A DNA stretch of 64,000 nucleotides from an uncultured Dehalococcoidia bacterium (GTDB lineage Bacteria; Chloroflexota; Dehalococcoidia; Lucifugimonadales; Lucifugimonadaceae). Location: the NCBI GenBank assembly GCA_958295935.1, contig OY282385.1, positions 2,273,545-2,337,544 of the forward strand. The letters are read 5' to 3'. The notes below the pieces were generated by a model. That model was given only the letters and a program-made list of their open reading frames with translations. It was not told the DNA's origin and did no database searches. The position numbers and the translations under genes are program-made. Position 1 is the first letter of the stretch, and each line of letters starts with the position of its first letter. Shown here piece by piece: positions 54,911 to 55,472 of this stretch.

Positions 54911-55121
54911 GGCAGACAGGCCGAACGAGTAGGCGCTCAGGTTGAAGACGCTGGCGGGACCTCGGCGGTAGGTGTTGGCGATTCGGGCGCCTGGGCGGGC
55001 GAGGAGCGCGAGAATGTCTGCTTGGCTCGATTCTTCTTCAGGGTTGATGAGGTGTCTGCGTCAAGATTGTATGCGGGTGTGGCACAATTCGGGCAGCGTT
55101 CTGTACATGGGAGGTCTTCAG

Positions 55122-55472
55122 ATGGCAGTCGAGGCTGTTTTCTATCACTGGAAGCGGTGAAGTTCCTGCAAGAAAGCGAGGGATGCTCTCTCGCAGGCCG
55201 GGGTAGAGGTTTCGGAGCGTGACTTTTTCTCGGAGCCTTTGAGCGAGGTTGAGTTGCGGGAATTGGCGGGGATGGCGTCGACGGATGAGATCTTCTCATG
55301 GTCCAGCCCCAGCGCCAGGGACTATCGTAAACGGCGCGGGGATATATCCGACGACGAATTGATCTCGCTGATGCTGGAAGAGCCTCGCCTCATCCGCCGT
55401 CCAATCCTGGTTATGGAAGGCACGGTCACTTTAGGCTACCGGAAGGCTGACTACGACCGCTTGTCTCTTTAG
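55122..55472 (+). CDS. probable selenocysteine-containing ArsC/Spx-like protein
   Basis: From ATG 55122 (GGGAGG seven bases upstream) the frame reads MAVEAVFYHWKR, then TGA at 55158-55160, then SSCKKARDALSQAGVEVSER and on to TAG-ending ADYDRLSL at 55472, 116 residues in all. ArsC/Spx proteins are thioredoxin-fold and carry a CxxC or Cxx-type motif right here; the TGA sits at the first Cys of CxxC (U13-S-S-C16). C-terminal blocks MLEEPRLIRRPILVMEGTV fit the family. A hairpin directly after the TGA (55165-55197) suits a bacterial SECIS. TGA is a normal stop in neighbouring genes. The role is probably a thiol/selenol oxidoreductase. A nonsense mutation is the main alternative; conservation of the whole frame downstream argues against old decay. 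No sel genes are in the window. Confidence 0.8.
55165..55197 (+). promoter_or_regulatory. SECIS-like hairpin after the in-frame TGA
   Basis: CCTGC (55165-55169) pairs with GCAGG (55193-55197), and GAG (55178-55180, or GCGAG from 55176) pairs with CTC (55190-55192, or CTCGC), with a purine-rich bulge on the 5' side. The apical loop is GGATGCTCT (55181-55189), 20 bases after the TGA. Bacterial SECIS elements lie in the coding region just behind the UGA and have a G in the apical loop, so position and form fit. Confidence 0.6.

Follow-up and report, generated by a model that had tools for sequence, protein, structure and literature searches.

In the DNA stretch analyzed here (64 kb; hereafter, the window), we describe a gene for a 116-residue protein whose reading frame is crossed by a single TGA codon, almost certainly recoded as selenocysteine (Sec13). 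Together with its predicted role, we consider it probable that the gene encodes a selenoprotein with SECIS-driven Sec insertion, acting as a cytosolic thiol/selenol oxidoreductase. The components of the recoding machinery, the conservation of the TGA and its exchange with cysteine codons, a covarying hairpin and the fold of the product can all be read from the sequences (Table 1).

Table 1. Features of the selenoprotein gene, with positions in the window
Feature	Position	Strand	Basis or remark
Selenoprotein CDS	55122..55472	+	116 aa, Sec13 in UxxC, ArsC/YffB/Spx fold
GGGAGG, Shine-Dalgarno-like	55109..55114	+	sequence; 7 nt 5' of ATG 55122
In-frame TGA, putative Sec13, first position of UxxC	55158..55160	+	78 TGA and 10 TGC/TGT loci, same column
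TGC codon, Cys16, proposed resolving cysteine of UxxC	55167..55169	+	at least 90% conserved, 84 sequences
Predicted bacterial-type SECIS hairpin, GCGAGGGA-UGC-UCUCUCGC	55176..55194	+	pairing, covariation, folding, RNAalifold
Codons for R93-P94 in RRP, both residues invariant; counterparts of R93 are Spx R92 and ArsC R94	55398..55403	+	conservation, alignment

The in-frame TGA and its conservation

The frame opens with ATG, ends with TAG (55470-55472) and, apart from the TGA of Sec13, is open throughout. Read through, it is translated as MAVEAVFYHWKR-U-SSCKKARD..., with the active-site motif HWKR-U-SSCKKARD. The frame, the ATG start and the position of the TGA at the first cysteine of an expected CxxC motif had been proposed in the first-pass annotation, and all are confirmed in the sequence. 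The same is true of the strong Shine-Dalgarno sequence, which corresponds to GGGAGG; a second in-frame ATG at 55107 overlaps it. If the TGA were not recoded, the first in-frame start past it would be TTG at 55239, yielding a product of 77 residues. The earlier estimate of a 38-residue loss was thus roughly right, the truncated product actually lacking 39 N-terminal residues. The neighboring genes are an MFS transporter, ispH and prs; among relatives, this neighborhood is syntenic within the family, and no functional link was found in it. A motif scan of the window yielded no further trusted selenoprotein candidate.

The source genome, a single contig of 2.75 Mb that is about 95% complete, carries all four components of the Sec machinery for which the first-pass annotation had suggested a search: selA (515.7 bits, cut-off 267.9), selB (337.2 bits, cut-off 242.25), selD (380.7 bits) and a tRNA-Sec with the anticodon TCA (UCA) (70 bits). 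Of these, selD (L025, G000:C1:970798-971724) encodes a selenoprotein as well: its active-site stretch AECGGUAGK contains a TGA in frame.

Of 149 related genomes searched for homologues, 88 contain the gene. In the extracted loci, the active-site codon is TGA in 78 cases (77 genomes) and TGC or TGT in ten, always in the same column; the expectation that this column would be Cys in some homologues therefore holds. About 26 families of the order retain the TGA in intact frames, and Cys is the sole alternative to it, Trp never being found. Given these 78 TGA and 10 Cys loci, the TGA at Sec13 is, by sequence comparison, not a product of chance. Seven of the ten Cys loci form one clade, genus g10, and three other families contribute one each, so that the tree requires four Sec/Cys changes. 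The Sec form is common in wider samples, too: 294 genomes of the class gave 42 matches, and 400 of the phylum gave 47, the majority with one TGA. Two members deviate: L068 is a Sec form with UQTS (UxxS) instead of UxxC, having no resolving Cys at that position, and L120 (G087:C184) has an in-frame insertion of roughly 25 residues.

Where the gene is in its Sec form (77 genomes), selA is present in 73 genomes, the remaining four being 74-88% complete; it is absent from the three isolated genomes with the Cys form (G105, G115, G116). The co-occurrence of the Sec form and selA is imperfect because genus g10 kept selA despite its Cys gene: the codon is Cys throughout the sampled genus (L044, L045, L046, L054, L055, L063, L064), yet selA is found in five of the seven genomes. 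Such natural Sec/Cys pairs, genus g10 and its relatives, lend themselves to asking what a small redox protein gains from Sec.

TGA serves as a normal stop elsewhere in the window, and the codon at position 13 could in principle be a regular stop codon or the result of a nonsense mutation, followed by a pseudogene remnant. However, its conservation at 78 loci with intact downstream frames and its exchange only with Cys, together with the Sec machinery and a conserved SECIS, make this scarcely credible, and we reject it. Genome-wide reassignment of TGA, for example to Trp, is favored by the open frame and nothing further, and its probability is negligible, as long frames in the window contain no in-frame TGA, 21 of 53 of them end in it, and the homologous column is Cys and never Trp.

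The candidate SECIS hairpin

The hairpin starts 18 nt and ends 36 nt downstream of the TGA and is best drawn as a stem of 7-8 bp (55176-55183 with 55187-55194) with an apical loop at 55184-55186. Bacterial SECIS elements commonly have a small apical loop that contains guanosine (PMC1088965), and in 53 of 54 Sec loci the first two positions of the loop are occupied by G. The core hairpin of this gene has a folding energy of -11.9 kcal/mol (z = -3.5). The longer segment 55158-55210, folded alone, is no more stable than its shuffled versions (z = 0.08), and hence the proof of the hairpin rests on comparison across relatives. The hairpin noted in the first-pass annotation is thus real, covaries and fits the features of bacterial SECIS elements, and with it all three checks suggested there gave a positive outcome.

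Counting from the T of the TGA, positions 19-25 pair with positions 31-37. Standard pairs are formed in 96% of the stem cells (58 loci), compared to 33% in the Cys genes, and sliding the stem partner by one to three positions reduces the fraction to 37-67%. As the stem overlaps codons, the protein sequence serves as a reference for the covariation. In particular, the second base of codon 8 (G/A) tracks the synonymous Leu codons CTC/CTT in 51 of 53 loci, and the second base of codon 7 (C/T, Ala/Val) tracks the third base of codon 12 (G/A) in 45 of 52. Both associations survive shuffling within GC3 strata (p about 5e-5). In tree-aware contrasts for the pair 23-33, all three switches on strongly supported branches are concordant, a number too small for significance.

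Run de novo, RNAalifold recovered the hairpin from 54 Sec sequences and from neither the Cys genes nor a downstream control; one of the Cys genes can fold into a hairpin unrelated to this one. No structure was obtained when all 78 Sec sequences were pooled, because two hairpin classes had been mixed, and splitting them resolved the problem. For the second class of 20 (L047, L049-L051 and 16 other loci, mostly from genus g12), RNAalifold predicts a shorter, shifted hairpin, AGCCC-GUC-GGGCU, where the others have the stem GCGAGRG/CYCTCGC, which gives the impression of a SECIS rebuilt in this clade. For the gene in the window, a UGA in a Cys column, the Sec machinery in the same genome and a SECIS whose small apical loop contains G are found together, as is characteristic of bacterial selenoproteins.

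Family, fold and predicted role

The read-through protein matches the Pfam family ArsC (PF03960) with 64.5 bits (cut-off 24, E 1.1e-17). Its best NCBIfam match is Spx (TIGR01617; 70.5 bits, cut-off 75.05); it was also scored with another Spx model (NF002459; 54.9 bits, cut-off 123), glutaredoxin-dependent arsenate reductase (TIGR00014; 39.3 bits, cut-off 106.05) and the dedicated ArsC selenoprotein model ArsC_rel_Se_1 (NF041106; 32.6 bits, cut-off 85). All these scores are below the cut-offs, as are those of three other members (L066, L104, L162) tested singly. Therefore such genes would usually be truncated or missed, in line with the earlier remark that most annotations would overlook this one. 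It is a well-supported case of a gene that escapes standard annotation, with relatives in dozens of bacterial families; a model based on the present sequence set would retrieve such genes.

The nearest sequence relatives are Spx and ArsC-family reductases (E 1e-23 for the Spx PDB profile). The AlphaFold2 model (pLDDT 84) has as its PDB matches, first, YffB (1rw1, TM 0.87) and Spx (TM mostly 0.82-0.86), the top ones reaching 0.84-0.87, with E. coli ArsC behind both (TM 0.75). Hence the initial label "ArsC/Spx-like" holds for the fold and for the Pfam family. Residue 13, F36, F58, S62, P88, R93 and P94 are invariant in 84 sequences.

We regard the protein as most likely a thiol/selenol oxidoreductase with a UxxC motif and the ArsC/YffB/Spx fold, for which we infer the following scheme. 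SelB with Sec-tRNA-Sec, bound to the mRNA hairpin downstream of the UGA, would insert Sec at residue 13. The Sec13 selenolate would then attack an oxidized substrate, which may be a disulfide, a sulfenate or a small oxidant, and Cys16 would resolve the intermediate via a selenenylsulfide. A thioredoxin- or glutaredoxin-type reductant would regenerate the protein, and the invariant Arg93 could hold an anion or tune the selenolate.

It is also conceivable, if unlikely, that these proteins form a lineage-wide Sec-based family of the ArsC/Spx fold with a function distinct both from arsenate reduction and from known Spx regulation, such as a Sec-Cys redox switch of transcription or a reductase dedicated to one oxidized metabolite.

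A true arsenate reductase, in which Sec13 would attack arsenate and arsenite would be exported, is quite improbable. The ArsC fold, the nucleophile at the position of ArsC Cys12, the invariant R93 equivalent to ArsC R94 and the existence of known Sec-containing ArsC proteins are consistent with it. However, of the three arginines at the arsenate site in E. coli ArsC, two are missing: R60 aligns with W60, and there is no conserved Arg at the position of R107. The TIGR00014 score, too, is far from its cut-off. Moreover, a search of the source genome, 95% complete, for the exporter genes acr3 and arsB gave no match, no ars genes were recognized among the neighbors, and this is the sole ArsC-family gene found there.

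A role as an Spx-type regulator, binding the C-terminal domain of the RNA polymerase alpha subunit and having a Sec-Cys redox switch, appears very doubtful. Spx and TIGR01617 are indeed the best sequence matches, the fold match is strong, and C10 and C13 of Spx correspond to U13 and C16. Still, the D51-G52 loop of Spx falls in a two-residue gap of the family alignment, whereas G52 is absolutely required for the interaction with the alpha-subunit C-terminal domain (PMC2801614). In addition, this protein has Ser at the position of Spx R60, and all curated Spx cut-offs are missed.

Given the absence of the ArsC R60 and R107 equivalents, the Spx G52 loop and acr3/arsB, we favor a general thiol/selenol reductase over arsenate reduction or transcription control. 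For the same reason, both "arsenate reductase" and "Spx regulator" would be over-naming.

Comparison with known proteins

YffB, an ArsC-family reductase (PDB 1rw1, PA3664), is the top structural match and is of about equal length; it is a Cys protein, with 24% identity to the present one. Spx/MgsR (TIGR01617, NF002459) is the best relative by sequence, its C10xxC13 and R92 corresponding to U13xxC16 and R93. Unlike Spx/MgsR, the present protein lacks the G52 loop and R60, scores below the cut-offs and has Sec in place of Cys. ArsC_rel_Se_1 (NF041106) is also an ArsC-family UxxC selenoprotein, but by the curated rule the present protein is not its member (32.6 vs 85).

ArsC-like selenoproteins have been reported in Deltaproteobacteria (PMC1794560). 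We have also observed a different UxxC ArsC protein on a contig of Deltaproteobacteria UBA796 (L032:764-1093), which scores 83.9 bits with TIGR00014 (cut-off 106) and keeps the ArsC-like motifs DVLRK and VGRP. Reviews of 2022 and 2026 list ArsC forms with both UxxS and UxxC.

We take cd03032 to be the ArsC_Spx class. The first-pass annotation mentioned ArsC-like selenoproteins from marine surveys, and this statement was correct (PMC1088965, PMC2398784). The Sec-containing arsenate reductase from the Sargasso Sea (COG1393) shares the ArsC family and the Sec nucleophile with the present protein, although its motif is UxxS rather than UxxC (PMC1088965). The "Arsenate reductase 2" selenoproteins of the Global Ocean Sampling set (cd03032, UxxC) comprise 42 Sec and 238 Cys sequences (PMC2398784; Zhang and Gladyshev 2008). 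Compared by description only, they resemble the present protein in belonging to the ArsC/Spx class and having Sec first in UxxC. This kind of protein is thus already known, as the Global Ocean Sampling selenoproteome of 2008 includes a UxxC member of ArsC_Spx, and the present gene is a well-placed addition to it: in contrast to the marine sequences, its place is given both within a one-contig genome, alongside the Sec machinery, and across a whole lineage.
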